Source: Oscillospiraceae bacterium
GTDB taxonomy: Bacteria; Bacillota; Clostridia; Oscillospirales; Ruminococcaceae
Length of the DNA: 58,460 nucleotides
Reading direction: 5' to 3'
NCBI GenBank assembly: GCA_009777445.1
Contig: WRLV01000005.1
Span: 1 to 58,460 of the forward strand
This document shows, piece after piece, positions 3,769-36,938 of the stretch. The notes below the pieces were generated by a model. The model did not search any database. It was not told the origin of the DNA and saw only the letters and a list, made by a program, of their open reading frames with translations. The translations under genes were made by a program, and so were the position numbers. Position 1 is the stretch's first letter, and each line of letters begins with the position of its first letter.

Positions 3769-6009
3769 TTGGAAAAACTTATATCTCAGCTGTCGCTTGA
3801 GTTTAACCGTGCTTATGAGCAGGTTGAAAATGTAATAACCCTGATTGAAGAAGGTTGTACCATTCCGTTTATTGCGCGTTATCGCAAAGAGCTACACGGT
3901 TCAATGGATGATGAATTATTGAGAAACTTAGCGGACAGGCACGACTATCTGTGTAACATGAACACACGCCGCAATGAAATCATCTCATCAATCGACAAAC
4001 AGGGTAAACTCACCGATGAGCTTATAGCCGCCATTGAGCAGGCCACAACACTCGCAAAACTTGAAGACATCTATCGCCCCTATAAACAAAAACGCCGCAC
4101 AAGAGCAACGGTTGCGCGTGAGAAGGGGCTTGAACCCCTTGCCGCCGCCATTTTTGCCCATGAGGTGAAAACCACCTTAGAAGAGTTGGCGGCAGAATAT
4201 ATCGACATTGAAAAAGGGGTAGAAACAGTTGAAGACGCGTTGCGTGGTGCTTCGGACATAATAGCAGAGGACATCTCTGACAACGCCGAAATTCGCGGTC
4301 TTTTGCGAACTGCTGTTATGGAAAGAGGAACGCTGAACTCAACGGCAACCCGTGATGAAGATTCGGTTTATCGTCTTTATTACGACTTTAAAGAGACACT
4401 TCCGCGCCTTCAAAGCCACAGAATTTTAGCAATAAATCGCGCCGAAAAAGAAAAATACTTAAAAGTCTCAATCCAAATAGATAACGAAGCCGCCCTGAGA
4501 ATTATATATAGTAAATTAGGGTTATCTTCGCGGTCTGCCACCGGCGGCTCGCCGCAAAAAGCTCAAGTGCAACCCGCGAGTGAGCTATTGCAAACAAAAC
4601 AAACTTCTTCACGGTCTGACGGCGGCGGTTCGCCGCAGTTTGTTGCTAATTCGGCTAAGGATTCTTATGAGAGGCTTCTCTTTCCTTCTATAGAAAGAGA
4701 GGCGCGCACGGCACTTACCGATACTGCTTCTGAGCAGGCGATTAAGATGTTCGCTCTTAATTTAAAGCCCACTTTAATGCAACCGCCTGTTAAGAATATG
4801 GTGACAATGGGGTTTGACCCTGCTTATCGAACCGGCTGTAAAATTGCCGTTGTTGACGAAACAGGGAAATTGTTGGAAACCGGAGTAGTTTATCCCACCG
4901 CACCCCACAACAAAACAGAGCAGGCAGCCATTACATTAACATCTATGATTAAAAGACATAAAGTTAAGGCAATCGCCATCGGAAATGGGACAGCATCAAA
5001 AGAATCAGAAATATTCATAGCCGATATGCTTAAAGGGCTTAACGGCGTGTCTTATATGATGGTTAACGAAGCGGGCGCATCGGTTTATTCGGCATCGAAA
5101 TTAGCGACAACCGAGTTCCCTGATTTAGATGTGTCGTTGAGGAGCGCGGTTTCGATTGCGCGAAGGCTTCAAGACCCACTCGCCGAGTTAGTTAAAATTG
5201 ACCCGAAAAGCATAGGCGTGGGGCAGTATCAACATGATATGCCTGCCGCGCGGTTAGACAGCGCGCTTGGTGATGTTGTTGAGGATTGTGTAAATGCGGT
5301 TGGCGTAGACATGAACACGGCGAGTCCCGCGCTCTTGTCATACGTTTCGGGGCTTAATTCAACCACAGCTAATAATATTGTGGCTTATCGCGAAGAAAAC
5401 GGCGTGTTCACATCACGCAGTCAAATCAAAAAAGTCCCCAAAATCGGGAAGAAGGCGTTTGAACAATGCGCCGGGTTCTTGCGTATTCCCGAAAGCAAAA
5501 ATGTGTTAGACAATACAGGGGTTCACCCCGAGTCTTATAAGGCGGCGGAGAAAATCCTTGAAATATGCGGCTCATCGCTGAAAGATGTCACCGGCACGGG
5601 AGTAGTCAAGGATTTAAATGACAAAATAAAAGAGGTTGGAATGTCTAAAGTCGCTGAATTCAGCGGTGTGGGAACACCGACAGTCATTGACATTATAAAC
5701 GAGCTGAAAAAACCCGGGCGCGACCCACGCGATGAACTACCCCCCACAATGCTTCGCACTGATGTAATGGACATAAAAGATTTAGCGAGCGGCATGGTTA
5801 TGAAAGGCACAGTGCGTAACGTTATAGACTTCGGCGCATTCGTGGATATAGGCGTTCACCAAGACGGATTAGTGCATGTATCAGAGTTGGCAAACCGTTT
5901 TGTGAAACACCCGTCCGAAGTGGTTAAAGTGGGCGATATTGTTGACGTTAGGGTTGTATCAGTTGACGAAGGCAAGAAACGCATTTCATTAAGCATGAAA
6001 GAAATTTAA
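3769..6009 (+). CDS. tex: Tex-family RNA-binding protein with an inserted repeat peptide
   Basis: This 746-residue protein matches Tex, a nucleic-acid-binding factor with an N-terminal helical region, a YqgF-like RNase H fold (MGFDPAYRTGCKIAVVD), a helix-hairpin-helix pair (SYVSGLNSTTANNIVAYRE) and a C-terminal S1 domain (GMVMKGTVRNVIDFGAFVD). The start is TTG, preceded by GAAAGGGAAAG; no in-frame ATG fits the family better. Residues about 253-290, between the end of the helical part and DSYERLLFPSIERE, form an insert that related Tex proteins lack. It is low in hydrophobic residues and is a copy of the coding repeat also present in rsmA and ispH. Confidence 0.95.
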   Translation: MEKLISQLSLEFNRAYEQVENVITLIEEGCTIPFIARYRKELHGSMDDELLRNLADRHDYLCNMNTRRNEIISSIDKQGKLTDELIAAIEQATTLAKLEDIYRPYKQKRRTRATVAREKGLEPLAAAIFAHEVKTTLEELAAEYIDIEKGVETVEDALRGASDIIAEDISDNAEIRGLLRTAVMERGTLNSTATRDEDSVYRLYYDFKETLPRLQSHRILAINRAEKEKYLKVSIQIDNEAALRIIYSKLGLSSRSATGGSPQKAQVQPASELLQTKQTSSRSDGGGSPQFVANSAKDSYERLLFPSIEREARTALTDTASEQAIKMFALNLKPTLMQPPVKNMVTMGFDPAYRTGCKIAVVDETGKLLETGVVYPTAPHNKTEQAAITLTSMIKRHKVKAIAIGNGTASKESEIFIADMLKGLNGVSYMMVNEAGASVYSASKLATTEFPDLDVSLRSAVSIARRLQDPLAELVKIDPKSIGVGQYQHDMPAARLDSALGDVVEDCVNAVGVDMNTASPALLSYVSGLNSTTANNIVAYREENGVFTSRSQIKKVPKIGKKAFEQCAGFLRIPESKNVLDNTGVHPESYKAAEKILEICGSSLKDVTGTGVVKDLNDKIKEVGMSKVAEFSGVGTPTVIDIINELKKPGRDPRDELPPTMLRTDVMDIKDLASGMVMKGTVRNVIDFGAFVDIGVHQDGLVHVSELANRFVKHPSEVVKVGDIVDVRVVSVDEGKKRISLSMKEI
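4525..4637 (+). repeat. Coding repeat element inside tex
   Basis: Two imperfect copies of a CGGTCTG...GGCGG-TCGCCG stem (about 4530-4554 and 4612-4636) flank a core GCTCAAGTGCAACCCGCGAG...GAGCTATTGCAAACA. The core aligns base for base with the rsmA copy except for scattered changes. The frame read is AQVQPASELLQT followed by SRSDGGGSP. Confidence 0.85.
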
Positions 6010-6031
6010 GCCAATTTCAAGGAGAATAATA

Positions 6032-7810
6032 ATGCCGGTGAAAATATTAATTGCGCTAAGCTTGCTCTTATTAACCGCTTGCACGCAATCTGAAAGCCCT
6101 CAAGCGCGCGATGTTTTTTTAAATGGGATTATCTATACAGCAGACGATGAAAATTGGCACCAAAATCCGCAAGAAAGCATAGCTGTAGGCGATGATGGGC
6201 GCATACTCTTCGTGGGCAAAAGCGAGCAAGCAAGCCTTTTTATAGGCGAAAACACTCGCGTGCATGAGCTTGACGGAAAGGTTGTGTTTCCGGGTTTTTT
6301 AGACACGCACACTCACCCGCCCGGCACGTCATTGTCTGTTATGTTCAACATTTACATACCTGTGATGGCAGAAAAAGAAGAAGCTCTTTCAATCATACGT
6401 GAATATATAGCAAATAACCCCGAGCAAGACAGTTATTGGGGAATGGGTTTTTCGTTAGGCATTGGTGATGACGAAACCGGCCCTAAAAAAGAATGGTTAG
6501 ACGAAATAGAAAGCGAGAAAGCAATTATTCTTACATCTTCTGACGGGCATAGTATGTGGCTTAACAGCAAGGCTTTTGAGCTAAACGGCATTACAAAAGA
6601 CAGCACTTATCCCACGGGAATTATTCATAAAAACGAAGAGGGCGAACTCTCGGGTATGCTTACCAGCACTTATAATATTTTAACTATGCAAAAGGTTTTT
6701 ACCCCGGAGCAACGAAAATCAGCACTTGAAGATTATCTTAAAAACATGCACAAGTGGGGGTATACGGGCGGTCAATATGTGCTTAAGTCCTTGGAAGAAG
6801 CAAATGTGGGCCCTGCATATGCCGATTATTTTATCGAGATGGCACAAACCGGCAGCTTGCAGACACGCGCTTCTCTCATGCACGTGTTTAACCCGGAGGA
6901 CGATTTTGACGAAGCATTAGACTATGTATTGAAAACGCAAGAAAAGTTAGTGGGCTTTGACACCGTTGCTATTAACACGGCAAAATTTTTTGTAGATGGC
7001 GTGGTAGAAGGCGGCACCGCTTATTTGTGGGAACCCTATGACAACAACCAAGAACGCGGCTTTTCATCGGACTATGTTTCTGATTTATTGTGGGACAACA
7101 ATGTGTTAAAAGAGCATTTCAGCACCCTTATGCATAACTCAATTCAATTACATATACATTCCATTGGCGACCGCGCCACCTCTGAAACATTAGATGCCTT
7201 AGCCTATGCGCATGAAAATAATCCCGAAGTGCATACGCGCAACACTATAACCCACCTGCAATTAGTGACAGAAGCGGACAAAATACGTATGGGCGAAATG
7301 AAAATCATCGGCTCTACCCAACCGTTTTGGCATTCTAAAGCACCGGGCTTTTATCACGAGGTAGAGCAACCTTTCTTAGGTGAAGAACGCGGGCTTATTG
7401 CATATCCGGTTAAAAGTTTAATTGATAAGGGGGTGTTAGTTACCTTTTCCTCAGATGCGCCGGTTACGCCTGAACCGCACCCTTTTACGGCAATTGAGTT
7501 GTCTGTCACTCGAAACCTTGAAAGCGGCGAGTATGGTGTGCCGGATATTGCCGATATTGACGAGCCTACGTGGCTTCGCAACCCTCCTGAACGCGTAAGT
7601 GTGAAAGAAGCTATTGAGGCTTTCACTATCAACAGCGCGTTTCAAATGGGCATGGAAGAACACATCGGTTCGTTAGCAGTGGGCAAATTTGCTGACATGG
7701 TTATTGTTAGTCAAGACCCATTCCACATTGAACCAATTAGGCTCAATGAAATAAAAATAATCGCAACTCTCTTTGCGGGAGAAATAATTTATGAAGGAGA
7801 AATAACATGA
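6032..7810 (+). CDS. Amidohydrolase family 3 lipoprotein
   Basis: This 592-residue protein has a lipoprotein signal (basic N-terminus, hydrophobic stretch, LLTAC lipobox with Cys about 17). An amidohydrolase of the YtcJ/Amidohydro_3 type follows: DTHTHPPG supplies metal-binding histidines, HSIGDRA is the usual mid-protein His motif, and SSDAPVTPEPHPF holds the catalytic Asp. The C-terminus returns to the beta-sandwich with SLAVGKFADMVIVSQDPF. It should hydrolyse an amide or cyclic amide outside the membrane; the substrate cannot be named. GGAG at 6020 supports the start. The stop overlaps the next lipoprotein gene by 4 nt (ATGA), so the two are probably translationally coupled. Confidence 0.9.
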   Translation: MPVKILIALSLLLLTACTQSESPQARDVFLNGIIYTADDENWHQNPQESIAVGDDGRILFVGKSEQASLFIGENTRVHELDGKVVFPGFLDTHTHPPGTSLSVMFNIYIPVMAEKEEALSIIREYIANNPEQDSYWGMGFSLGIGDDETGPKKEWLDEIESEKAIILTSSDGHSMWLNSKAFELNGITKDSTYPTGIIHKNEEGELSGMLTSTYNILTMQKVFTPEQRKSALEDYLKNMHKWGYTGGQYVLKSLEEANVGPAYADYFIEMAQTGSLQTRASLMHVFNPEDDFDEALDYVLKTQEKLVGFDTVAINTAKFFVDGVVEGGTAYLWEPYDNNQERGFSSDYVSDLLWDNNVLKEHFSTLMHNSIQLHIHSIGDRATSETLDALAYAHENNPEVHTRNTITHLQLVTEADKIRMGEMKIIGSTQPFWHSKAPGFYHEVEQPFLGEERGLIAYPVKSLIDKGVLVTFSSDAPVTPEPHPFTAIELSVTRNLESGEYGVPDIADIDEPTWLRNPPERVSVKEAIEAFTINSAFQMGMEEHIGSLAVGKFADMVIVSQDPFHIEPIRLNEIKIIATLFAGEIIYEGEIT

Positions 7811-9369: not shown

Positions 9370-9390
9370 AGGGTGATTTCGGAGGTTGCC

Positions 9391-17043: not shown

Positions 17044-18231
17044 TTAATTATCTTTTGATTTCAAATCTCTTATCTTCAAAAACACGGCGCAAATCACGGT
17101 TAAGACGGCTGTCATGCTGACAAAGCCTAAACCCACGGTTATGTCAAAAACAGTTGCCACGAACCCTACAGCCATAGGGGTGATAATTCCTCCCGTGCTT
17201 GCGATTGCCAACAGCGTTCCCATTGCCGCGCCTGAACCTTTCAGAATTTTCCCTGTCGCCCCGATGGTGGTCGGATATATTCCGGCGAAAAAGAACCCGA
17301 ATAAAATTATTGCCGCCGCCGTAAGAGCCTGATTAACGCTTGTGATAAACACAATAAACATAACCGCCGCACAAAAAGAACAGATTAGAATCAATGTCTT
17401 ACTGTTAAATTTGAGCGAAAGAAATGCTGTAGTCAGTCGCCCGACTATAATAACCGCCCATAAGAGAGACAATATGAGTTGCGCCAACCCTGAGTCCATT
17501 CTGCCAGAATCCACTAAATATGTAACCACCCACCCATTGACTGCTGTTTCTGTTCCCAAATAGAAAAACATGACTCCTGCGGCAAGATAAAAATCGATGT
17601 TCTTGTAAAACTTCGGTTTGTTTTGGTCGGGGGGCGGTGTTTTTTCTGTTGCCACCTGAGGATTTCCGGCTGCCACCGGAGGCTCTCCGGTTTTGGGTAA
17701 AAGCAGAGAATATACTATTAAGATGCTGAGTGAGAAAACTACACCCACTAAGACAACTGTTTTCCAGTCGTGGCCCATGTTGAGAAGAATTGATGCCATG
17801 AGCGGAGAGACAAATGCCCCCACGGCAAAAAACATGTGCAGAAGGTTAAGATAAACAGACTTTCCTGCCGACATGTCGTTAACTATGGCGTTATTGACGT
17901 TGCTAATACTGCCCCTGCCTATCCCCGTCAAGAGGAAGGCGGGCAGCAGAACGAATATATGAGAGCTTAAGACAATCCCCAAATAAGACAGGAAAAGCAA
18001 AGACGAAAGGGCGATTATGGTTTTTTTGCGCCCGACTCGCCCCAACAAAAATAACACCGCGAAACCGGCGACTAAATTGCCTATTGAATGGGCTGACAAA
18101 AAAATCCCGGCGGTGTCGTAGTCTATTTTATAGTCTGCCATCAAAAACGGCATTACCGCCCCCATGACGAGAGCCATCATTCCGTTAACAAAAAATGTGT
18201 AATATACACAAAAGAATGCTCGTTTCTTCAT
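17044..18231 (-). CDS. MFS transporter, fucose-permease-like
   Basis: This 395-residue protein has about 12 hydrophobic helices and an MFS loop 2-3 motif (GRVGRKKTI), with GIGRGSISNVNNA in helix 4-5. The substrate cannot be assigned; sugar or drug export are both possible. The central loop after helix 6 (residues about 180-195, TGEPPVAAGNPQVATEKTPP) is encoded by two tandem GCCACC-type units related to the stem of the coding repeat in tex, but inserted antisense to the gene. The start codon overlaps the nadE stop by 4 nt, so the two are coupled. Confidence 0.9.
   Translation of the reverse strand: MKKRAFFCVYYTFFVNGMMALVMGAVMPFLMADYKIDYDTAGIFLSAHSIGNLVAGFAVLFLLGRVGRKKTIIALSSLLFLSYLGIVLSSHIFVLLPAFLLTGIGRGSISNVNNAIVNDMSAGKSVYLNLLHMFFAVGAFVSPLMASILLNMGHDWKTVVLVGVVFSLSILIVYSLLLPKTGEPPVAAGNPQVATEKTPPPDQNKPKFYKNIDFYLAAGVMFFYLGTETAVNGWVVTYLVDSGRMDSGLAQLILSLLWAVIIVGRLTTAFLSLKFNSKTLILICSFCAAVMFIVFITSVNQALTAAAIILFGFFFAGIYPTTIGATGKILKGSGAAMGTLLAIASTGGIITPMAVGFVATVFDITVGLGFVSMTAVLTVICAVFLKIRDLKSKDN
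17648..17692 (-). repeat. Degenerate coding repeat inside the MFS gene
   Basis: On the plus strand, CTGCCACCGGAGGCTCTCCG differs at two positions from CTGCCACCGGCGGCTCGCCG in tex. A second degraded unit GCCACCTGAGGATTTCCGG lies just before it. The core ELLQT segment is missing. Confidence 0.5.
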
Positions 18232-19576: not shown

Positions 19577-20557
19577 TTGTTGATTAGCGACAGCGTTTAA
19601 AGTCATGTCCCCGACTGTCCCATTAAGATATTCATAATAGCCCTGACACCCAATCATAGCCGCGTTATCGCCGCATAATGAGAGCGGCGGATAATAAAAT
19701 TCTAAACCGTGAGCGGCAATTTTCTCTCTCAAAAGAGAGTTTGCCGCAACGCCACCCGAGAGCGCGAGAGTTTTATATCCGTGCTCTCTTGCTGCGTTCA
19801 CGAACTTTTCTGACAATATCTCGCAAACTGTATGCTGAAAGCTTGCCGCCAATGAAGGTATGTCTAATTCAACCTTCTTTTGTTTCGCATTGTGGATTAG
19901 GTTGAGCGTTGCCGTTTTAAGCCCTGAAAAACTAAAGTCGTATTTGTTAGCAGTCTTCGGAAAGGGAAGCTTATATTTTTTCGAGTCACCGTTCAAAGCC
20001 GCCTTCTCAATGTGAATTCCGCCGGGATAAGCCAACCCCATAGCGCGCGCCGCCTTGTCAAACGCTTCGCCTGCCGCATCGTCAATGGTTCTCCCGATTG
20101 TGGTGAAGCGTGTGTAGTCGTCAACCTTCATAATTTGGGTATGGCCGCCTGATACAACCATTGCAAGATAAGGGGGGCTAAGCGATTTGTGGGCGATATA
20201 ATTTGATGCGATATGCCCTTTTATGTGATGCACAGGAATAAGCGGTTTATTCGCCCCCAAGGCAAAACCTTTTGCAAAGTTCACCCCGACTAACAAAGCC
20301 CCGACAAGCCCGGGCGCGAAAGTCACGGCAATTGCGTCTATATCCTTTTTCCCAACCCCTGCCGCGCTTAATGCCGATTCGCAGACCGATGAAATGCACT
20401 CACAATGCAGCCGTGAGGCAAGCTCAGGTACCACGCCGCCGTAAAGACTGTGTTCGTCAAGCTGGGTTGCTGTTATATTTGACAAGACATTCCTACCATC
20501 TTCAACAACAGCGCAAGACGTTTCATCACAAGATGATTCAATTGCTAATATGAGCAT
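19571..20557 (-). CDS. tsaD: tRNA threonylcarbamoyltransferase TsaD
   Basis: This protein of about 328 residues is the universal Kae1/TsaD enzyme, which attaches threonylcarbamoyl to A37 of ANN-decoding tRNAs. It shows LAIESSCDETSCAVV, the metal-binding PVHHIKGHIASNY, LAMVVSGGHTQIM, DDAAGEAFDKAARAMGL and the C-terminal LSGGVAANSLLR. The ATG at 20557 is preferred to the upstream TTG at 20563 because GGGAG lies 8 nt before it. The start lies inside the 3' end of rsmA, so the two genes are coupled. Confidence 0.96.
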   Translation of the reverse strand: MLILAIESSCDETSCAVVEDGRNVLSNITATQLDEHSLYGGVVPELASRLHCECISSVCESALSAAGVGKKDIDAIAVTFAPGLVGALLVGVNFAKGFALGANKPLIPVHHIKGHIASNYIAHKSLSPPYLAMVVSGGHTQIMKVDDYTRFTTIGRTIDDAAGEAFDKAARAMGLAYPGGIHIEKAALNGDSKKYKLPFPKTANKYDFSFSGLKTATLNLIHNAKQKKVELDIPSLAASFQHTVCEILSEKFVNAAREHGYKTLALSGGVAANSLLREKIAAHGLEFYYPPLSLCGDNAAMIGCQGYYEYLNGTVGDMTLNAVANQQL

Positions 20558-21510
20558 ATACAACTCCCAATATCCAAAAAGTTTTCTAACTTTAAATTTT
20601 CAGCGCGTGAAGCAGGGTTTATTCCGCATTGCAACAGCAACTCTCTCAATTTTTCTTTTGGAATGTCAAAATCAGATGACAGAGGGTTTATGATTTGTTT
20701 TCGCCGCTGTGAAAAAACCGACTTCACGACTTTAAAAAACCGTTTTTTGTGAACCTCGTCAAGATTATGTTTCCCCGTAATTGTGATTTTAATTACCGTG
20801 CTGTCTACCTTCGGGGCAGGGAAAAAACTGCGCGCCGAAACATCAAACAATCTTTCAGCCTCACCGTAATACCTAACCGCCGCACTGATTGCCCCACACT
20901 CTCTTGTTCCGGGCAAAGCGACAAGCCGTGTCGCCACCTCACTTTGAACCATAACAGTGACTGCTCTTATCGCAGGCGAGCCGCCTGTTTCAAACCGAGA
21001 ACAGGTTTGTTCTGTTTGCAACAGCTCACGCGCTGGTTGAACTTGAGCTTCCGGCAGAGCCTCTATCTCAAGCAAACGCATAATAACAGGGGTGGTAATA
21101 TAATAAGGCAGGTTAGCGCAGCACACAACGTCCATTCCTTTAAAATGCGACTCTAACAGCTCTTTTAAGTCCAACTCTAATATATCGCCGTAAATAATCT
21201 TTGTGTTTGTGTCTAAAAATTCAGCCAACGTTTCTTCTAACACAGGGGCGAGGGTTTTGTCAATTTCTACCACAACAACTTTTTTATATCGCAAAGCCAA
21301 CTCTCTTGTCAACACCCCGACACCAGCCCCGATTTCAAGAACCCCGACATTTTCGTTTGTTTCGCCGACACCACCCAAGCGTGCGATTTTCGGGCAAACT
21401 GACGGGTTAATCAGAAAATTTTGCCCCAAAGAACGGCTGAACGAAAAGCCATGCTTTTGAAGCAGGGCTTTTATTGTTTTAATGTTAGTTAAATTCAATT
21501 CGCCACTCAT
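20545..21510 (-). CDS. rsmA: 16S rRNA dimethyltransferase RsmA/KsgA with an inserted repeat peptide
   Basis: This 321-residue enzyme dimethylates the two adjacent adenines near the 3' end of 16S rRNA. SAM motif I is LEIGAGVGVLTRELA and the catalytic motif IV is NLPYYITTPVIM, after SLGQNFLINP. Between MRLLE and IRAVTVMVQSEVATRL, where relatives have a few residues, this protein has about 32 extra (149-180) containing AQVQPARELLQTEQTCSRF. This is the coding repeat also in tex. It sits on the face following the catalytic loop and should be a surface loop, since all core motifs are intact. Family length is about 270-290. Confidence 0.95.
   Translation of the reverse strand: MSGELNLTNIKTIKALLQKHGFSFSRSLGQNFLINPSVCPKIARLGGVGETNENVGVLEIGAGVGVLTRELALRYKKVVVVEIDKTLAPVLEETLAEFLDTNTKIIYGDILELDLKELLESHFKGMDVVCCANLPYYITTPVIMRLLEIEALPEAQVQPARELLQTEQTCSRFETGGSPAIRAVTVMVQSEVATRLVALPGTRECGAISAAVRYYGEAERLFDVSARSFFPAPKVDSTVIKITITGKHNLDEVHKKRFFKVVKSVFSQRRKQIINPLSSDFDIPKEKLRELLLQCGINPASRAENLKLENFLDIGSCICSY
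20972..21062 (-). repeat. Coding repeat element inside rsmA
   Basis: Read on the gene strand it contains GAAGCTCAAGTTCAACCAGC, GAGCTGTTGCAAACAGAACA and a terminal GAAACAGGCGGCTCGCC. The first two blocks match the tex copy with a few changes and are read in the same frame. Confidence 0.88.
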
Positions 21511-22118: not shown

Positions 22119-22556
22119 TTAAACATGTCCTTTTCTATAATTAAGATAAGATTCTAACAAAACAGCGGCGGCTAAAGCATCTACACACTCTTTTCGCTTT
22201 TTGCCACGGCGGTTAAGTTCGTTCATGATATTGTTAGCCGAAACAGTAGTCGAACGCTCATCCCACATAATCACCGGCGTGCCTTCGGTTTCAGACCGCT
22301 TTATTTCTTCGCGCAACTTATCGGCAAACATTTCGCACTTTTGACTTCGTGGGCCTTTGGTTCCGTTCATGTTGATGGGGTTTCCGACAATTATTTCTTC
22401 AACCTTATATTCTATAGCCGCCGCCGCGACTTGTTTAACACAAAGAGCAAAATCTTTCTCGCGGATAGTCTTAGCCGGACTTGCTATAGTCGCGGTTAAG
22501 TCGCTGACAGCCAAACCCGTTCGCGCATCCCCATAATCAACTGCCATAATTCTCAT
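22119..22556 (-). CDS. yqgF: YqgF/RuvX Holliday-junction-resolvase-like protein
   Basis: This 145-residue RNase H-fold protein is a putative pre-16S rRNA nuclease. Active-site blocks are the N-terminal MAVDYGDARTGLAVSD, VGNPINMNG with the downstream Glu of the helix, and IMWDERSTT. Residues about 87-94 (KRSETEGTP) form a slightly long turn just before the DER strand. The DNA there shares CGGTTTCAGACCG exactly with the coding repeat in ispH, so it may be a decayed copy. The gene precedes the GNAT gene in the same direction. Confidence 0.92.
   Translation of the reverse strand: MRIMAVDYGDARTGLAVSDLTATIASPAKTIREKDFALCVKQVAAAAIEYKVEEIIVGNPINMNGTKGPRSQKCEMFADKLREEIKRSETEGTPVIMWDERSTTVSANNIMNELNRRGKKRKECVDALAAAVLLESYLNYRKGHV
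22276..22300 (-). repeat. Possible short coding repeat remnant inside yqgF
   Basis: Plus-strand GGCGTGCCTTCGGTTTCAGA then CCGC resembles GGCAAGCCGCCGGTTTCAGA then CCGG in ispH. It reads RSETEGTP against RSETGGLP. It is short enough that chance cannot be excluded. Confidence 0.4.
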
Positions 22557-23203: not shown

Positions 23204-25525
23204 TTATATTTTTTGTACCAACAACAAGAACACGTCACTTTCTATGTTGTTTTTGATTAGAGTGGCTCTGTGCCATTGATAGACACCGCCGAAACATTCT
23301 TTTCTGTATTCAAAATGGGTTACTTCAGAGGCTGACTTTCTAAAGACCCCGAGACTTTCGGGCGACATGAGTTGTCTTACGGTCTCAGCATCTTCAGGGT
23401 GAATGTGTTTTCTGAAAAAGAAGGTCAAAGTCGCATCAAGGTCGCCTTCTTTCACAAACGGGTCGTCAAGCGAATTGTTTTGAACTAAAACGATTTTGTG
23501 ATTTTTTATGTTCAATTCATAAAACGCACCGCTTAAATTGCTGAAAGCAAGCTTCAAGTTTTGTTGAAGTTCCATCGGCTTATCGGCGTATTTGAAGTAA
23601 ATCAAAGCTAAGCGTGACGATTCTTGCGATTTGCCTATTTTAGCTACTGTTATGGTATAGTTTGCATATTCCTCTTTAAGACATAAAAGACGGCTGTCAA
23701 AAACCTTTGCACGATATTCGTGGGTTATGGTTTTGTCTCCTCTTTCAAAACACGCCATGATGTTGTCTGCCGCGATTGTTTTCAAGAACTCAAACCTATC
23801 TTCCGGCAAAAGCTGTGTTTCGGCAAACGCTTGAATTTCACGCGAGAAGATGCCGCTTTTGCCCATGTGTGCGAATTTATTATTGCCGTTTGAGACGATT
23901 TTAACGGTGTCTCTTCTTAAGTCAGTCTCCCAGACCATTTGCTCGGTGTTTTTCAACAACGATGAATATTTCATATAAACATCGTCTATCCCCGGGCTTT
24001 GAAGTTGTGCCGTTGAGCTTGTTTCGATTTTTTCCGACTCTTCTATTTTGTCGTAACCTCTAAACGATTTAGCGTATTCAATAAAATCGGCAACGCACAG
24101 TGGCTTTGAATAGACATAGCCTTGAACTATTCCGCAGCCTATTTTGCGCAGAAACTCAATTTGTTCTTCGTCCTCAATGCCTTCGGCGACAATCTCCATG
24201 TCTAAACCTCTGCCCATGGCGATTACCGATGCAATAAGAGAGTTATTACGCCTTAGGTTTTCTTTGTCGCCTATGAAAAACTTTCGGTCCATCTTAAGCG
24301 TGTCAACGGGAAGCTCTTTAAGAACGTTAAGGGACGAGTGCCCCGAGCCAAAGTCGTCAAGCGAGCAATAAAATCCGTTAGCCTTAAGAGTATGTATAAT
24401 GCGTTGAAAAGTTTGATAATCTTCAAATGCGGCACTTTCGGTAAACTCAAGCTCAAGTCTTTTGTCGGGAATGTGATATTTGTTCTTGGTTTTAGTATAA
24501 AATTCAACGAAATCACTCTTGTATATGTCAATCCGCGAAACATTAACTGCCACTCTCATGCCTTCAAACCAGTCCTCGTTCAAAGAACTCGCCACAAATT
24601 CACAGACCTTCTCGAAAATATAGCGGTCTAACTCAATCACAAAGCCATTCTTTTCAAAAATCGAAATAAAAGAACCGGGTAAAACAATCGTTCCGTTGGG
24701 TTTTTTCCACCGCACCAAAGCCTCAGCACTCATAATTTCGTCATGCTTCATCAAATAATATTGAGGTTGAAGATAAAAACAGAACTCGTCGTTGCTCAAC
24801 GCCTCTTTCATGGTGTCGATAATTTCACTCTCACGCAAGGCATTCGAGCGCATATCCTCGTCATAAACGACACAACTTGTTTTCTTCTCGCCGGCAACTC
24901 GCAAGGCTATAAGCGCGCAGTTGACAAAGTCAAAAATGTTTATTGCTTCACAGTCGTTTAAAGTATAAATCCCACAATAAATCTCACCAATGTTTTCATC
25001 AAGAGAGAGCGTGCTGTTTCTTTTGATTATTATCCTAAGCTCTTTGAAAAAGTTGAGCAGCTGATTTAAATCGTTTCGGCGAAGCAAAATAACAAAGTTA
25101 TCAGCGGTGAATCGCGCTTGAATTTCACCCGGCATAAGAACCTTAGCTATGCTTTTAGCGAGACACTTAATCAATCGGTCACCCTCTTTAGTGCCGAAAA
25201 CTTCGTTGATATATTTAAAATTGCGAATATTGATTTGCATAATCGAATAGTTTTTATGCCCATGTTTAAACAGAATCTTTTCGGCATCATACAAGAAACA
25301 CTTTCTGTTCCTCACACCGGTGAGCAGGTCGGTATTCTCAAGATTATAAGCATGAAGCCGGTATCTCTTTCTTTGAAGGAATATAATTACCCCAAAGACA
25401 ATCAACACCAAAATAATAACAGACAGCAAAATAACCAAATGGGTAACGCTCAACCGCGCAACCGGCGAAACATCGCCGGCAGAAGAACCCACAGCCAAAT
25501 TAATAATATTTCCGAAAACTTTCAT
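23204..25525 (-). CDS. Membrane GGDEF-EAL protein, likely c-di-GMP phosphodiesterase
   Basis: This protein of about 773 residues has one N-terminal transmembrane helix (LVILLSVIILVLIVFGVIIF). A GGDEF domain follows whose catalytic motif is degraded to FTADNF, then an EAL domain with EALVRWKKP, VNVSR, ELEFTES, LDDFGSG, DTLKMDRKF and AEGIED. The EAL residues needed for metal binding and hydrolysis look intact, so it should break down c-di-GMP with the GGDEF part as a sensor. The last 240 residues contain one or two PAS-like segments. The ATG at 25525 is preferred over 25552 because GGGAGTGTC precedes it. Confidence 0.9.
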   Translation of the reverse strand: MKVFGNIINLAVGSSAGDVSPVARLSVTHLVILLSVIILVLIVFGVIIFLQRKRYRLHAYNLENTDLLTGVRNRKCFLYDAEKILFKHGHKNYSIMQINIRNFKYINEVFGTKEGDRLIKCLAKSIAKVLMPGEIQARFTADNFVILLRRNDLNQLLNFFKELRIIIKRNSTLSLDENIGEIYCGIYTLNDCEAINIFDFVNCALIALRVAGEKKTSCVVYDEDMRSNALRESEIIDTMKEALSNDEFCFYLQPQYYLMKHDEIMSAEALVRWKKPNGTIVLPGSFISIFEKNGFVIELDRYIFEKVCEFVASSLNEDWFEGMRVAVNVSRIDIYKSDFVEFYTKTKNKYHIPDKRLELEFTESAAFEDYQTFQRIIHTLKANGFYCSLDDFGSGHSSLNVLKELPVDTLKMDRKFFIGDKENLRRNNSLIASVIAMGRGLDMEIVAEGIEDEEQIEFLRKIGCGIVQGYVYSKPLCVADFIEYAKSFRGYDKIEESEKIETSSTAQLQSPGIDDVYMKYSSLLKNTEQMVWETDLRRDTVKIVSNGNNKFAHMGKSGIFSREIQAFAETQLLPEDRFEFLKTIAADNIMACFERGDKTITHEYRAKVFDSRLLCLKEEYANYTITVAKIGKSQESSRLALIYFKYADKPMELQQNLKLAFSNLSGAFYELNIKNHKIVLVQNNSLDDPFVKEGDLDATLTFFFRKHIHPEDAETVRQLMSPESLGVFRKSASEVTHFEYRKECFGGVYQWHRATLIKNNIESDVFLLLVQKI

Positions 25526-30753: not shown

Positions 30754-30779
30754 GCATAGGGCAAAGGGCAGCTTAAATG

Positions 30780-30818: not shown

Positions 30819-30859
30819 GGAATGTCTTGCGGAAATGGGTTCAGGTGGTTATGATTTCG

Positions 30860-31180: not shown

Positions 31181-31192
31181 AAACCTTACCCC

Positions 31193-31325: not shown

Positions 31326-31598
31326 TGCATTAATTAAATAGAATTGGTCACCTGCCTTGAAAGGAACAGTGTTATGAGAAGTAATAAATTTACCAATGCC
31401 ATTTAAAATGATGATTAAAATTTCAAATGAATTGTCCCAATCTTTGTGTTGCCATTTCGTTTGATAATCTTTTTCAAGTCGAACTGTACACATTCTAACA
31501 AAATCTTCGCTTATAAGATGTCCACCGCTATTCTCGAATAAATCCGATTTTTTGATAAGCTTGAAAGATAATGTTTTGTTTTTGTTATATTTTATCAA
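31245..31598 (-). CDS. Cupin-like protein truncated by fusion to the Rhs remnant
   Basis: This 117-residue frame begins MIKYNKNKTLSFKLIKKSDL and shows a cupin-like strand pattern (FEILIIILNGIGKFITSHNT, then PFKAGDQFYLINAP). Such domains occur as the sensor half of AraC-type regulators. After about residue 95 the sequence (RISHFGEKREWKRHNLRVYL) is the Rhs remnant read out of frame, so the native C-terminus is lost. It is probably not functional in its original role. Confidence 0.55.
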   Translation of the reverse strand: MIKYNKNKTLSFKLIKKSDLFENSGGHLISEDFVRMCTVRLEKDYQTKWQHKDWDNSFEILIIILNGIGKFITSHNTVPFKAGDQFYLINAPCRISHFGEKREWKRHNLRVYLHILS

Positions 31599-31624
31599 GG
31601 CAGATACCCCCTATTTTCACAAAA

Positions 31625-31996
31625 TCATACAATCATTCCGTTGTCCTTTCGTATATAAAAACTCAAGGAAAAACATACAGCACTTGTAATAAACCCATCA
31701 TCGGTATATCCCGGGTGAGGGTGATACAAAACTTGCCATAAATTATCTTCTTCCATAAAATTAACTTCGTATATATCATAGTATAATTCAGGGTCATAGG
31801 AAGGAGTTGTTCCAATAATTATATCAGCTATTTTTTTTGCGGTCTCTGCATCAGGAACACGGTCTATTTCTACCGGAGCATCAGTCTCATAATCAAGATG
31901 CAAGCGTTCACATACCGGTTTCTGAAATATAAGACAGAGGCTTAATGAAATATTTGTTATAAATAAAATTGATATAACAACGTATAAGATTTTCAT
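31625..31996 (-). CDS. YbbC/YhhH-like NTF2-fold immunity protein
   Basis: This protein of about 123 residues begins with a hydrophobic segment (ILYVVISILFITNISLSLCL), then the block VPDAETAKKIADIIIGTTP, a middle EVNFMEEDNLWQVLYH and a final FYIRKDNGMI. This order resembles the NTF2-fold immunity proteins linked to Rhs toxins. The ATG at 31996 is preferred because GGAG lies 9 nt before it; an in-frame ATG at 32011 has no site. Its position beside an Rhs remnant supports the reading. Confidence 0.6.
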   Translation of the reverse strand: MKILYVVISILFITNISLSLCLIFQKPVCERLHLDYETDAPVEIDRVPDAETAKKIADIIIGTTPSYDPELYYDIYEVNFMEEDNLWQVLYHPHPGYTDDGFITSAVCFSLSFYIRKDNGMIV

Positions 31997-32135
31997 AGTT
32001 TTGAACTCCATGTTTTTATGATATTATTTTAGCATATTTACATTCAAAAGTCAAGGGCGATGGAAGGCTGACATTCATGGTTTATTCGCAAAACTCGCTA
32101 TTGTTTTTAACTTAAAAAAGACCCGAAAATACACC

Positions 32136-32164
32136 TTGTATGTTCCAAAAAAATATGTTATAAT
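32136..32164 (+). promoter_or_regulatory. Promoter of the RhuM-like gene
   Basis: TTGTAT (32136-32141), a 17-nt spacer and an extended -10 TGTTATAAT ending at 32164. The transcript would have a leader of about 100 nt. Confidence 0.6.
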
Positions 32165-32270
32165 AAATCTAAAACCTTGAGAAAAAAGATACAGGCAGTT
32201 ATTGGACAGTTGATTTTATAGAATATATTAAAAACAAGGCGAATGATGATGAATAGAGGAGTTCAAGTCT

Positions 32271-33290
32271 ATGTCCCTAAAAGAAAACAAACTGACAATC
32301 CGTAACACAACCGCCGAGTTTCTGACTTTCGCCTACCAAACGGGCGGTGACGGAATCGAAGTGCGTGTGCAAGACGGCACGGTGTGGCTTTCGCAAAAGC
32401 TGATTGCAAGCCTTTTTGATACACAATTAGCGAACATAAACATGCACATTACTAACATTATTACAGAAACTGAAATAAACGAAACGGCAACTATTAAGGA
32501 TTTCTTAATAGTTCAAAAAGAGGGCGACCGTGCGGTTAATCGCAAAATCAAGCACTATAATCTTGATATGATTATCGCCGTCGGGTATCGCGTTAATTCC
32601 GCTAAGGCGACCGAATTTCGGCGTTGGGCAACTGTCGTTCTGCGAGAGTTTGCCTTGCGTGGTTATTTAATCGACAAAAAGCGCATGGAAAACGGTATGT
32701 TTTTAGACGATGATTACTTTGAACGCTTACTTGAGGAAATCCGTGAAATTCGCCTGTCCGAACGGCGATTTTATCAGAAAATAACCGATATTTACTCGAC
32801 TTCTATGGACTACGATAAATCCGCCGTGACTACTAAAAATTTCTTTGCAAAAGTTCAAAACAAGCTACATTGGGCAGTTCATCATCATACGGCGGCAGAG
32901 TTGATTTACAAACGTGCAGACAGCACAAAAGAGCATATGGGGCTTACGATGTGGGAAAAAGCACCGTCCGGGAAGATTGTAAAGAGCGATGTTTCGATTG
33001 CGAAAAATTATCTCACCGAGCATGAAATGCAAGATTTAGAGCTGATTGTTTCGGGATATTTAGACTTGGCTGAGGGTATGGCGCGGCGTAAAATCCCGAT
33101 GACGATGGCGGATTGGGCAGAGCAGTTGGACATGGTTCTTAAAGCGAGCAAGTATGAGATTTTGGATAATTTGGGGAGGATTACTGCTGAAATCGCAAAG
33201 GCTCATGCGGAGAATGAGTTTGAGAAGTATCGAGTTATTCAAGACCGCTTGTTTAAGAGTGACTATGATGAGTTTTTGTCGAGGGTATGA
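32271..33290 (+). CDS. RhuM-family protein
   Basis: This 339-residue protein matches the RhuM family over its length. The N-terminal half has VWLSQKLIASLFDTQLANIN, VNRKIKHYNLDMIIAVGYRVNS (read in two pieces) and ATEFRRWATVVLREF, which resemble the KilA-N/Bro-N DNA-binding fold. The C-terminal part has FFAKVQNKLHWAVHHHTAAE. RhuM was first named in Salmonella SPI-3; its biochemical role is unclear, and it is frequent on islands and near restriction genes. GAGGAG precedes the ATG. Its 3' end overlaps the convergent transglutaminase gene by 38 nt. Confidence 0.88.
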   Translation: MSLKENKLTIRNTTAEFLTFAYQTGGDGIEVRVQDGTVWLSQKLIASLFDTQLANINMHITNIITETEINETATIKDFLIVQKEGDRAVNRKIKHYNLDMIIAVGYRVNSAKATEFRRWATVVLREFALRGYLIDKKRMENGMFLDDDYFERLLEEIREIRLSERRFYQKITDIYSTSMDYDKSAVTTKNFFAKVQNKLHWAVHHHTAAELIYKRADSTKEHMGLTMWEKAPSGKIVKSDVSIAKNYLTEHEMQDLELIVSGYLDLAEGMARRKIPMTMADWAEQLDMVLKASKYEILDNLGRITAEIAKAHAENEFEKYRVIQDRLFKSDYDEFLSRV

Positions 33291-33990
33291 TTTTATTCCG
33301 GATTCTATTTACATTCCTATTCATAAAATGGCGCACGATATAGCGAAACATAAAAGTCTTAAATCGCCCCACTTTCTGCCGCTCTTTTCCGAACAATTCA
33401 TCAGGGCTGTCAAAAACGCCAAGGTCTGCTATAATGCCGTCTTTTTGAATGTAGGTGTTACCCCCGTTCCATTCCACAGGTGGGTTTTGAAAGTCGGGTG
33501 TAGCCACCGCATAGCCGCAGAATGAGCCTGTGCAGTCTTTGAATTGAGCTTGCAAGCCGCCTAAATAGCGCATATCTAAGATAAACCCCTCTAAATTCAG
33601 CCATTGAGCGTTGTAATAAACCTCAACCCACGAATGGAGTATTTCTTTGGGCGACTGCCCGTAATAAAACCCTTTCAGCGTACCCTTTTGTATGATTTTA
33701 TCCACGAAAAACCCGTGTATACGGCAGGGAATTTGCACGGCGCGGAGCAGAGCCATGAACAGCGTTCCTTTAGTATTGCACTGTCCATAGCCGTCACGCA
33801 AAACATCGGCGGCTGAAAGAGTGTCGGCTTTGTTATAGCCGAACGCAATCTCATCGCGGACATAGTTATAAATGGCTAAAATACGCTCTTTTTCGCTTAG
33901 TTCACGCCAGTTTCTTTTATGTATGAGGGAGCGTATTTCCGGCGCATTGTAATTGAGCAGAGCGGTTTCGTTTAATAGATTTTCTATCAC
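33253..33990 (-). CDS. Transglutaminase-like cysteine peptidase-fold protein
   Basis: This 245-residue protein has a transglutaminase core: the catalytic Cys in DGYGQCNTKGTLFMALLRA, the His in LHSWVEVYYNAQWLNLEG and the downstream Asp in LDMRYLG. Family members include proteases and cross-linking enzymes; many small bacterial ones are cytoplasmic. No signal peptide is visible. It overlaps the methyltransferase gene upstream by 4 nt and should be cotranslated with it. Confidence 0.85.
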   Translation of the reverse strand: MIENLLNETALLNYNAPEIRSLIHKRNWRELSEKERILAIYNYVRDEIAFGYNKADTLSAADVLRDGYGQCNTKGTLFMALLRAVQIPCRIHGFFVDKIIQKGTLKGFYYGQSPKEILHSWVEVYYNAQWLNLEGFILDMRYLGGLQAQFKDCTGSFCGYAVATPDFQNPPVEWNGGNTYIQKDGIIADLGVFDSPDELFGKERQKVGRFKTFMFRYIVRHFMNRNVNRIRNKIIPSTKTHHSHS

Positions 33991-34604
33991 GTCTTTTCCC
34001 CCTTCACAATCTGCATAGTGCCTTTTTTGTAGATTTCGGTTATGCGAAAACCATTGTCGGTAAAGAGTTTTTTCAGCCGCTTATGGCTGAACAGTTTGTT
34101 ATCACCCGCTTTATACAGTGGGGACAAAAGGTTAAAAATCTGTCTTATCCCGAACGGCAGCCATATTTCAGCCACAATCAAAGTTCCGTTTGTTTTAAGA
34201 ACTCGATTTGCCTCCCGAAAAAAGTTGCCCGGGGCGTTTAAGTGATGAAGCGCACAGCAAATCGTGAGAATGTCAAAGCGATTATTCTCAAAAGGGAGTT
34301 TCTCGCCGCTTGTTACATAAAAATCAATGTCCGCATACTTTCGGCGACACTCGTCAATCATTTTCGGTGAAATATCAATGCCTAATGCCTGTGCGTTACC
34401 TTTGCGTTTCAGCGCGCCGATAAGCGTTCCGTTTCCACAGCCAACGTCAAGCACCGTAGCCCCGTTTGGCACCTCGCAGAGTTCAAGGATTTTTGCCTTA
34501 TAACCTGCTGACATTCTGCCGTCAGGTGTATTGTCATAATCAAATGCGAGACTGTTATACTTTTCGATAGAATATTTTTCGTGTTTATTCATGTTTTTAG
34601 CCAT
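33987..34604 (-). CDS. Class I SAM-dependent methyltransferase
   Basis: This 205-residue methyltransferase of the UbiE/Methyltransf_11 type has motif I VLDVGCGNGTLIGAL, the acidic residue in ALGIDISPKMI, ENNRFDILTICCALHHLNAP and LIVAEIWLP. The acceptor is unknown. It starts the two-gene unit with the transglutaminase-like gene, behind a consensus-like promoter. Confidence 0.88.
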   Translation of the reverse strand: MAKNMNKHEKYSIEKYNSLAFDYDNTPDGRMSAGYKAKILELCEVPNGATVLDVGCGNGTLIGALKRKGNAQALGIDISPKMIDECRRKYADIDFYVTSGEKLPFENNRFDILTICCALHHLNAPGNFFREANRVLKTNGTLIVAEIWLPFGIRQIFNLLSPLYKAGDNKLFSHKRLKKLFTDNGFRITEIYKKGTMQIVKGEKT

Positions 34605-34629
34605 GTCCTTTCTTGTGTTTTATAGTATC

Positions 34630-34658
34630 ATTATATCAATAATATTTTCAATATACAA
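34630..34658 (-). promoter_or_regulatory. Methyltransferase promoter
   Basis: Minus-strand TTGTAT (34658-34653), a 17-nt spacer and TATAAT (34635-34630). Confidence 0.65.
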
Positions 34659-34701
34659 GTACGCACTTTAATGTGGTATAGGAACTAAAAAGTAACTAAA
34701 C

Positions 34702-34729
34702 TGCCCCGACACTCTAAAGTGCCGGGGCA
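34702..34729 (-). terminator. Hairpin terminator after ispH-S1 (T-module relative)
   Basis: TGCCCCGACAC-TCTAAA-GTGCCGGGGCA forms a perfect long stem apart from one mismatch. It lies 23 nt past the ispH-S1 stop and before the methyltransferase promoter. A T-tract is weak in this direction. Confidence 0.65.
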
Positions 34730-34751
34730 AATATATTTATAGGTTGTTCGG

Positions 34752-36938
34752 TTATTTGTTTTCAGCCACAGGCTCATCGGTCACGACTTCTTCAGCCGCA
34801 GGCTCTTCAGTTGCAACTTCTTCAGCCGCAACATCGTCATCAGAGTAGACAAGTGCATCTGGTTGAGATTCGGGTTGCTCGTTTGAGTCGTCATCGGTTG
34901 TCTCTTGGGGAATTTCTTTTACTGACAGTGCTTTGACGGAAAGACTGACTCTACATTTCTCTTCGTTTATTTCTGTGATTTTACATTCCACATCTTGACC
35001 GATTTGTAACTCTTTGGCAACGTTTGTTACGCGCTCAACAGAAATCTGTGAAATGTGAATAAGCCCGTCAACGCCGGGAATAATGCGCGCGAACGCCCCG
35101 AACGGAGTTATGCTCACCACGTTAGCGGTTATAACATCGCCGATATTAAAGTCGTTTAAGAACTTAGTCCATGGGTTGTCGTTAGGGTCTTTAACCCCCA
35201 ATGAAACCCTTCTCTTAATAGGGTCGAAGTTTTTAACGTATACATCTAACTTTTCGCCGACAGAGACAACTTCTTTCGGGTGTTTGATTCTGTTCCAGGT
35301 GAGTTCGGTTAAATGCACCATGCCGTCTACGCCGCCGAGGTCGACAAAAACGCCGTAGCTTTCCATAGACTTCACTTCGCCGGTATAGCGTTGACCGACT
35401 TCAATTTGGTTCCAGAAGGCTTCTCTCTTTGCATCAAGTTCTTCTCTGAGAGTCGCTCTTATTGAGCCGACAACACGGTTTCTCTCTTTGTTGACTTCAA
35501 TAACTTTGAACTTGACAATCTGTTTTTGAAGTTCTTCAAGTTTTCCCGTACGCGGAACGCCCGATTGTGAAGCGGGGACGAAAATTCGCGCCCCTTTATA
35601 AATCAAAATCAGACCGCCCTTAACCACCGCCGTTACGGGGGCAGAAAGCGTTTCGCCGCTTTCAAGGGCTTTTTCGATTGTTTCAAGACCCAATACCGCA
35701 TCTATGCGTTTTTTAGACAGATAAACAACGCCCTCAGCATCGTTTATTGAGGTGACAATACATTCAATTTCATCGCCGACTTTAACCACTTCTTCGGGTT
35801 CAAGCCCGGGTTCGGCACTCAACTCATCGGCAGGTATGTAGCCCGAGTGTTTGGTGCCCACGTCAACAACAGCTTCAGTTCTGTTGACCGCAACAACGCA
35901 GGCCTTGACCCTGTTCCCTATATATACTCTTTTGAAGGTTCGGTCCACCTCCGCCATGAAATCAATGTCAGAGCCGCTTTCCGTACTCTCGACGACCTTG
36001 TTTTTCAATTCTTCGTTCATAAAATTATGAACCTCCTTAATAATCCTCGCGGGCGTTGAAGCACCGGCGGTAATGCCTATTAAAATATCCTTTTGAGGGG
36101 ATAACAGCATACATATTTGTTCAAGCGACAGCTGACTTTTGTCTTCAACAAAAAAAGTGGGGGTAATGTCAGCGCATATTTGCGCAAGCTTTCTTGAATT
36201 GCTGCTACGGCTTGAACCGACAACAATCATCAAGTTACATTCTGCGGCTAATTTACGTGCCTCTTGCTGACGATTAACAGTCGCTCTACATATTGTATCA
36301 AATTTTTCGCCGTTTGTACAGTATTTTTTTATAATTTCTTTACAATATCGCCATTGTGCTACATCAAAGGTGGTTTGAGCCATTAAAATTAGTGCATTTT
36401 GACGAAAAATTTTTTCGCGCTTCAACAAATCCTCTAATAAAACGGCAGATTTTACTACTTTCACTACGCTGTCACCAAGAGCGTGACCCAACACCGCAGT
36501 TATTTCGGGGTGTTCAATATCACCCATTATTATGACATTTTTTCCCAACGCAGTTTGTTCGCTGATAATTTTGTGTAATTTTTTCACATCAGGGCAGGTA
36601 GCATCAATATAACGTATTCCCTTCTCGTTCAACAACTCATAAACCCCACGCGAAACACCATGACTTCTTATTATGACCGGCAAGCCGCCGGTTTCAGACC
36701 GGGAAAAGTCATTTTTTGTTTGCAACAGTTCTCTCTCATCAATCGAAAACACACCGCGCGCTTCAAGTTCGCGCTTGACGGTGTCGTTATGGATTAGTTC
36801 GCCGAGGGTGTAGCCGCCTCCCGCTTGCGCGACTTGCTCGGCAATTTCAACCGCGCGCCTCACGCCGTAACACATTCCAGCCGTTTTAGCAATTCGGCAA
36901 TCAACCTTCAATTGTCCGCTTAAGCTCTTTAATTTCAT
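34752..36938 (-). CDS. ispH-rpsA: IspH-ribosomal protein S1 fusion with an inserted repeat peptide
   Basis: This protein of about 728 residues joins HMBPP reductase, the last step of the MEP isoprenoid pathway, to S1-type RNA-binding domains, a fusion known in Clostridia. IspH iron-sulfur cysteines are in AGMCYGVRRAV, DATCPDVKKLH and DTICRATVNRQQE. Four S1 domains follow, e.g. GQRYTGEVKSMESYGVFVDL and GDVITANVVSITPFGAFARI, then an acidic tail. Residues about 70-87 (ELLQTKNDFSRSETGGLP) are an insert before VIIRSHGV and match the tex and rsmA inserts. The ATG at 36938 has no good binding site; TTG at 36911 would also suit the family. Confidence 0.95.
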   Translation of the reverse strand: MKLKSLSGQLKVDCRIAKTAGMCYGVRRAVEIAEQVAQAGGGYTLGELIHNDTVKRELEARGVFSIDERELLQTKNDFSRSETGGLPVIIRSHGVSRGVYELLNEKGIRYIDATCPDVKKLHKIISEQTALGKNVIIMGDIEHPEITAVLGHALGDSVVKVVKSAVLLEDLLKREKIFRQNALILMAQTTFDVAQWRYCKEIIKKYCTNGEKFDTICRATVNRQQEARKLAAECNLMIVVGSSRSSNSRKLAQICADITPTFFVEDKSQLSLEQICMLLSPQKDILIGITAGASTPARIIKEVHNFMNEELKNKVVESTESGSDIDFMAEVDRTFKRVYIGNRVKACVVAVNRTEAVVDVGTKHSGYIPADELSAEPGLEPEEVVKVGDEIECIVTSINDAEGVVYLSKKRIDAVLGLETIEKALESGETLSAPVTAVVKGGLILIYKGARIFVPASQSGVPRTGKLEELQKQIVKFKVIEVNKERNRVVGSIRATLREELDAKREAFWNQIEVGQRYTGEVKSMESYGVFVDLGGVDGMVHLTELTWNRIKHPKEVVSVGEKLDVYVKNFDPIKRRVSLGVKDPNDNPWTKFLNDFNIGDVITANVVSITPFGAFARIIPGVDGLIHISQISVERVTNVAKELQIGQDVECKITEINEEKCRVSLSVKALSVKEIPQETTDDDSNEQPESQPDALVYSDDDVAAEEVATEEPAAEEVVTDEPVAENK
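36676..36732 (-). repeat. Coding repeat element inside ispH
   Basis: On the gene strand GAACTGTTGCAAACAAAAAA then CGGTCTGAAACCGGCGGC then TTGCCGG. It matches the second half of the tex element in sequence, length and frame. The upstream GCTCAAGT part is absent. Confidence 0.82.

Follow-up and report, generated by a model that had tools for sequence, protein, structure and literature searches.

A family of small hairpin repeats was found in the genes tex, rsmA and ispH of an Oscillospiraceae-type bacterium and at many other places in its genome. Most probably, these are dispersed, non-autonomous elements of two sizes that have been proliferating and whose copies in genes are read as protein loops. 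The stretch analysed, referred to as the window, is a whole contig (C5; WRLV01000005.1, 58,460 nucleotides) of an assembly that comprises 1,983,484 bases in 91 contigs and is 91.57% complete. The first-pass annotation of the window had proposed that the three genes share an extra peptide encoded by homologous DNA. The copies are present in all three and are read as ELLQT...SR.(E/D).GG.P, and the homology at the DNA level was settled by matches throughout the genome. The tex copy as query gave at least 45 of them at E up to 10 (best 40 of 82 candidates scored), and a pattern for the stem unit matched 62 times, against 0 with a reversed control pattern. The further copies that had been predicted genome-wide are thus numerous. 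Mobility of the elements is suggested by their copy number and by the empty sites found in relatives.

Alignment of copies from about half of the genome resolved two forms, designated S and L. S (TCTGCCACCGGCGGCTCGCCGG) has 21-22 bp or seven codons and forms a hairpin with the loop GCT and a 6-base stem (consensus TCTGCC (A)CCGGCG-GCT-CGCCGG(T)), in which a seventh, outermost A-T pair is often broken. TT follows directly at the 3' side in 30 of 90 listed copies. L has ~78-81 bp (26-27 codons) and consists of a unique segment of ~57 bases (AAAGCTCAAGTTCAACCCGCGCGTGAGCTATTGCAAATA...TCTCGG) and a terminal S; an S remnant often sits 5' of it. The spacings of tandem copies observed within genes include 72 and 78 bases for L and 21 bases for S, which are multiples of three. 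Copies of L shortened at either end were observed, and the 3'-truncated ones among them led us to abandon the idea of a 5'-truncating retroelement.

S with up to 2 mismatches occurs 65 times in the genome (control: 0), and the L consensus gave at least 46 matches at E up to 0.01, at least 27 of them spanning 60 bp or more (best 40 of 84 candidates scored). All further statistics on this genome refer to 939,472 fetched bases, or 47% of the assembly, which were picked partly for holding matches. This DNA contains 91 copies of S with up to 4 mismatches and 109 with up to 5, the latter compared to 1 for a reversed and 0 for a shuffled control. The 31 long copies are divided into 17 in genes in sense orientation, seven in genes in antisense orientation and seven between genes.

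Position and reading frames in host genes

Of the 800 genes called in the fetched DNA with a simple codon-usage caller, 51 harbour a long copy or S with at most 4 mismatches. Pfam supports Tex, RsmA, IspH, RsgA, GlmU, RNase R, PriA, DNA polymerase I, PurL, PurD, NFACT, a dihydroorotase-type amidohydrolase, a HisS/HisZ-type protein, a GalU-type nucleotidyl transferase, signal peptidase II, FliH, two P-type ATPases, an RlmCD-type methyltransferase, pectate lyase and a phage terminase small subunit as hosts; names finer than the Pfam names are our assignment. After merging of sites, S with up to 3 mismatches is located in genes at 46 of 65 sites, between genes at 16 and at gene edges at three, and the L core is in genes at 19 of 25. 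With the same caller, three other hairpin repeats of this genome served as an internal control and were found in genes at 2/55, 1/32 and 0/33 sites, in total 3/120. A TTGACAA-type repeat was in genes at 3 of 143 sites and at edges at 58. Three repeats that lie in genes at 100% of their sites proved to be leucine-rich-repeat coding sequence and were rejected as dispersed elements.

The S consensus is free of stops in all six frames, and nevertheless 47 of the 52 S-only copies in genes are read in just two of them, SATGGSP (29 copies) or GEPPVAD (18 copies). RRAAGGR (3) and LPPAARR (2) account for the others, while the remaining two frames are not used; 18 more S-only copies are intergenic. When each gene and frame is counted once and the S ends of L are taken in, the two favoured frames account for 47 of 51 (p=2e-18 versus 1/3). 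For L, the consensus has a single stop-free sense frame. Phasing succeeded for 27 of the 31 long copies. Stops in the sense frame are absent from all 15 sense copies in genes, compared to 3 of 6 intergenic copies with stops. In the antisense frame, none of the six antisense copies in genes has a stop, compared to 10 of the 11 sense copies in genes for which an antisense frame was found. We infer that frame use is set by stops in the case of L and by peptide quality in the case of S. The earlier claim that the tex, rsmA and ispH copies are all read in the same frame is correct as an observation; as an argument, it says little for L, whose consensus offers only one sense frame, and is carried by S.

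These results fit a scheme in which a hairpin-bearing unit with a length that is a multiple of three would insert into DNA and copies that break genes would be lost. The survivors in genes would mostly be read in the sense frame EAQVQPARELLQIKQTCSRSATGGSP or the antisense frame GEPPVADRE.... Both favoured frames give stop-free, Gly/Pro/Ser-rich flexible loops, which are presumably harmless. The element would thereby be maintained in the form of additional protein loops and, occasionally, of a linker between fused genes. The first-pass annotation had likewise suggested a mobile element that survives by encoding a harmless loop. The frame bias and the internal control agree with this suggestion; mobility is deduced from copy number and empty sites, and pairing was shown for the 3' hairpin.

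Empty sites, gene fusions and further copies in the window

Within rsmA/ksgA (20545..21510, minus strand), a long copy at 20971..21051 (minus strand) forms a clean 81-bp insertion flanked by CTGCCG and ATAAGA and encodes residues 154-180; the Pfam family RrnaAD extends across it. Of 59 other sampled genomes of the genus, 54 have RsmA (55 of 60 when the own genome is counted), and residues 156-172 are not covered by any of the listed matches to relatives. For the best solved RsmA chain, the alignment reaches query residue 151 and resumes at 181, and two chain residues lie in between. At the DNA level, a pattern for this loop matched at 24 of 29 sister loci, and at 21 of the 24 CTN-CCN is directly followed by an Ile, Leu or Val codon, whereas the own gene reads CTG CCG, 81 extra bases and ATA AGA. 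The insert thus has exactly 81 bp and separates codons that are adjacent in sister species. The similarity of the flank CTGCCG to the insert end CCTGCG is, with relatives this distant, only suggestive of a target-site duplication. A structure prediction of RsmA alone reached a predicted local distance difference test score (pLDDT) of 32, and the model was discarded.

Joined flanks of 26 insertion sites were queried against three relatives. The join was spanned by a relative's alignment at 21 sites. Two further sites are located at gene ends (start of priA, end of the RNase R gene) and have one alignable side only, and the three sites without a spanning match are the start of nspC and two gene fusions. 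In the alignments shown, with one to four relatives per site, no relative carries the element peptide; the comparison with orthologues of sister species that the first-pass annotation had proposed therefore revealed proteins without it. A large gain in length compared to the relatives was seen for DUF512, RsgA, one P-type ATPase, RlmCD (two sites), RsmA, Tex and GlmU. IspH gained ~10 residues, and the gain was small for purD, NFACT and altronate dehydratase. Many of the sites are loops that vary among relatives.

At the 3' ends of the inserts in RsgA and NspC (L080, L082), the last Pro or Pro-Val codons of the element coincide with native ones in relatives. This hints at microhomology at the junction (CCGGT), although the aligner may favour such a placement. 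In DnaE (L326), the Pro-Val at the 3' end of the insert is presumably also native to the family.

At two loci, the host gene is a fusion and the element lies at the joint. At one (L093), an alpha-amylase and a pectinesterase are combined in a single frame of 854 residues and separated by two element copies, while in the relative G069 both are separate (468 and 331 codons) with a third frame in between. At the other (L084), a single frame contains HisI, two element copies and an unidentified part of 148 residues; in G069, G019 and G013, HisI has a frame of its own with 107-113 codons. We propose that the element occasionally persists as a linker between fused genes.

The remaining copies of the window are of different quality. 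In tex (3769..6009, plus strand; Pfam Tex_N, Tex_central_region, Tex_YqgF, HHH and S1), an S unit, that is the hairpin with a few upstream bases, at 4524..4555 (plus strand, frame SSRSATGGSP) is directly followed by a long copy at 4556..4636 (plus strand, QKAQVQPASELLQTKQTSSRSDGGGSP), and the element sits within the Tex central region. A 5'-shortened long copy at 36677..36735 (minus strand, RELLQTKNDFSRSETGGLP) is part of an ispH-S1 fusion gene (34752..36938, minus strand; Pfam LYTB and four S1 stretches). Degraded partners had also been suspected in yqgF and, antisense, in a transporter loop of the major facilitator superfamily (MFS), and this held up in part. Antisense to the MFS transporter gene (17044..18231, minus strand), the stretch 17648..17690 (plus strand), read as TGEPPVAAGNPQVAT, contains an S unit at 17669-17690 with 3 mismatches and a poorer tandem neighbour at 17648-17669 with 7. 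The RuvX/yqgF gene (22119..22556, minus strand) carries a diverged S unit with 5 mismatches at 22274..22295 (minus strand, SETEGTPV). When up to 2 mismatches were allowed, the core 15-mer matched five times in the window, compared to 0.85 expected. S with up to 7 mismatches matched ten times, and since five shuffled controls also yielded 0-2 matches, the weak ones at 25462, 28206 and 45589 may be due to chance.

The window also contains the other repeats. The control hairpin TGTAGGGGACGGGCTTGCCCGTCCCGAAT, with 51 of its 55 merged sites in the fetched DNA being intergenic, starts at 42679, 45719, 46699, 46807, 51034, 51095 and 58415. The hairpins GTCCGCTTGCGCGGAC and CCGTCGCCGCAAGGCGAC, nearly all extragenic, lie at 449, 3608, 10650, 28648 and 58443, and TTGACAA-type arrays at 476, 3584, 10677, 14797, 21554, 25669 and 42710. 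A gene at 46837-50097 (minus strand) encodes a 1086-residue leucine-rich-repeat protein (BspA-like by eye) with coding repeats of 69 bp, whose words are also found in several further stretches of the genome.

Hairpin, routes of spread and distribution

Covariation was analysed on the six inner pairs of 128 distinct S sequences. Double Watson-Crick changes numbered 22, while shuffling gave a mean of 5.5 and a maximum of 15 in 5000 rounds, and sliding the partners reduced the number to 1-8. One coding copy with a double change has an altered peptide, SATVGST. Such compensatory changes in the stem point to a role of the hairpin in copying at the DNA or RNA level or to quasi-palindrome repair or correction during replication. 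A possible second short hairpin, GARCA-NNNN-TGYTC, was noticed in L by eye; covariation refers to the 15-base 3' hairpin alone.

Several points weigh against mobile, gene-tolerated hairpin elements. Of the 128 sequences, 80 have a broken outermost A-T pair in the stem, and a test that included this pair and allowed G-U was weak, with 27 double changes compared to a shuffle mean of 14.6 and a maximum of 27, and a paired fraction of 79.8% compared to 77.9%. The pooled in-gene contrast (Fisher p=2e-24) is to be taken as large rather than exact, as the copies are related and not independent and all p-values are therefore optimistic. The best control is the hairpin with 2/55 sites in genes alone, which has five of six frames open across its conserved block; the cores of the other two are open as well, yet the consensus of each is attached to arrays of a 7-base TTGACAA-like repeat that bring in stops. 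The counts stem from less than half of the assembly, a part chosen with some regard to matches, and from a simple gene caller. Moreover, purL (first site), polA and hisZ show a gain near zero and look like replacement or divergence, because a segment of similar length that is unrelated to the element occupies the site in the relatives. The empty sites come from distant relatives (45-84% identity in listed matches with E below 1e-20), so that target-site duplications are unreadable. At the loop of one P-type ATPase in which the own genome carries the element, the relative G069 has a different, unrelated long insert (L160), and this loop may therefore be a general hot spot of insertion. Finally, a PF01797 search revealed no mobilising gene in the own genome.

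It is possible that no dedicated enzyme is involved and that the units spread when replication switches templates, through repair at microhomologies or by gene conversion among hairpins, followed by tandem duplication in frame as a second step; we regard this as the less probable course. The compensatory stem changes are what quasi-palindrome correction would give, and the tandem copies at 72, 78 and 21 bp, the truncation at either end and the native Pro or Pro-Val codons beside the insert ends in RsgA and NspC relatives suit it as well. On the other hand, 51 hosts among 800 genes and a species-specific burst of L are much for a passive process, and the precise 81-bp insertion in rsmA is not readily accommodated.

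Movement of the REP/RAYT type, in which a hairpin like that of repetitive extragenic palindromic (REP) sequences is mobilised in single-stranded form by a Y1 (IS200/IS605-like) transposase (the REP-associated tyrosine transposase, RAYT), appears unlikely. In its favour are the short GC-rich hairpin, its tens of copies in both orientations, the tandem units and the occurrence of S as a dispersed repeat in Nitrospina and other genomes. However, no Y1 transposase (PF01797) was found in the own genome, where the gene could be missing at 91.57% completeness, while 5 of 14 control genomes were positive. Among the 14 S-bearing genomes, the domain was detected in four, in three of them above the cut-off. 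The GTAG tag is absent, and the copies in the own genome are mostly intragenic.

Somewhat more doubtful still is that the loop is retained for a benefit to the host proteins, for example as linker, tag or interaction surface. The high share in genes and the position of elements at two gene fusions would agree with this. So would the apparent survival in genes relative to non-genic DNA of 0.27, a value that presupposes uniform insertion and survival of all non-genic copies and is close to the ceiling of 1/3 set by the frames; either non-genic copies are also removed or insertion favours genes. But the host proteins have no function in common (DNA polymerase I, RNase R, PurL, PyrC, GlmU, RsgA, RsmA, IspH, phage terminase), antisense copies encode a wholly different peptide, and the relatives examined manage without the loop. 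Ordinary protein indels, or a family trait combined with chance similarity, can be dismissed in spite of the many sites in variable loops, as they are refuted by the identity at the DNA level across unrelated genes, the intergenic copies, the zero controls and the absence from the sisters searched.

The two forms differ in their distribution. L was found in none of the 70 other genomes of the genus, four of which match just 20-25 bases of its S end, and in none of 393 other genomes of the order at E up to 1e-6, where few candidates were scored in each genome. One gapped pattern for L had no match in the genome_contigs collection, from which the own genome is possibly left out. S is present in 10 of 71 genomes of the genus including the own. 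In the relatives, some copies of it are located in frame in genes, for example in PlsX-like, IorA-like and kinase-like genes and in DnaE (names by reading). S-type units occupy the same DnaE loop in the own genome and in G027 (L326 13928-13970; L215 1501), which reflects either an inherited copy or a repeated target. A looser S pattern matched at least 99 stretches in genome_contigs, with many Nitrospina among the 80 loci listed, and at most of the listed Nitrospina-type loci the longest stop-free frame across S is below 200 codons. Fourteen S-bearing genomes contain 1-49 copies each (controls 0). The 21-base S hairpin was also seen in differing longer repeats of Nitrospina, Neomarinimicrobiota, alphaproteobacterial and Oscillospirales records (L226-L305). 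Tentatively, S may be one unit across phyla that turned coding in this genus by way of two harmless-loop frames, built the species-specific L, aided fusions and is moved by something other than a Y1 enzyme.

Other origins were tried and rejected. Neither the L nor the S pattern had an exact match in viral contigs. Rfam revealed nothing relevant in 11 loci, with two matches at chance level (L266, L250). A self-splicing intron was rejected since four loci of the own genome had no Rfam intron match at E up to 1 and the 15 phased sense copies of L in genes are free of stops.

Comparison with known repeat systems

Palindromic repeats that reside in coding sequence are a long-standing oddity, best known in Rickettsia and Wolbachia, and the means of their movement and the reason for their tolerance by genes are unsettled. 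The first-pass annotation had named these as parallels. The in-frame residence in unrelated genes supports the comparison; the CGTC tag and the long stem-loop do not recur. Rickettsia palindromic elements (RPEs) sit in frame in conserved, unrelated genes, and the host enzyme Gmk with such an insert is described as still active with changed substrate affinity (PMC2229807, PMC10969869, PMC3767692). They have 100-150 bp and long stem-loops, and terminal inverted repeats are given in a table of PMC2229807. S and L are likewise dispersed, short and in frame within unrelated, often conserved genes. They differ in that L has only ~78-81 bp, pairing was shown for the 15-base 3' hairpin alone, the seven-codon unit dominates and the host is of the Oscillospiraceae type; with pairing limited in this way, the element is not a long palindrome like an RPE.

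RPE-4/6 correspond to CGTC-tagged repeats (PMC3733652). According to the same source, CGTC repeats have CGTC at one end, a stem of 8-9 bp and a loop of 4-5 bases, and the passages describing these families name five phyla, Firmicutes not among them. No CGTC tag is present at the aligned ends of the S and L consensus, and the stem of S has 6-7 bp and its loop three bases. GTAG is also absent from both consensus sequences, and S lies mostly in genes, while GTAG REPs are predominantly extragenic. Because the structural marks of RPE/CGTC repeats and GTAG REPs are lacking, we class the family as working like RPEs without being a member.

Bacterial miniature inverted-repeat transposable elements (MITEs) such as ERIC and Correia are found fused in frame to genes, abundantly so for the 107-bp Correia form, and are described as primarily intergenic (PMC2229807). 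S and L share with them the small size, the non-autonomous nature and the in-frame residence in genes, but no terminal inverted repeats were seen by inspection at the ends of the L consensus. PARCELs are coding repeats with dyad symmetry that form amphipathic tandem arrays of 25-residue units, often in open reading frames targeted to the membrane (PMC2996958). Their reading frames are of unassigned function, whereas the hosts in the own genome are core enzymes with mostly one or two units.

Searches of the open-licence literature, in which most subscription papers are missing, revealed no described Clostridia family of such coding repeats, as the first-pass annotation had supposed. Some REP hairpin units are intragenic and lie in known protein genes of several species (PMC3733652), so that the kind as such is already known; what appears to be new is this family, the lineage that carries it and the majority of copies in genes. 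The finding would add an independent case of coding palindromic repeats outside Rickettsia and Wolbachia, in an Oscillospiraceae-type bacterium. It would also serve as a natural experiment on how essential enzymes take up an inserted loop and how a repeat can fuse genes. With its seven codons and six comparable frames, together with other, extragenic hairpin repeats of the genome as control, S separates insertion from selection at the protein level directly.

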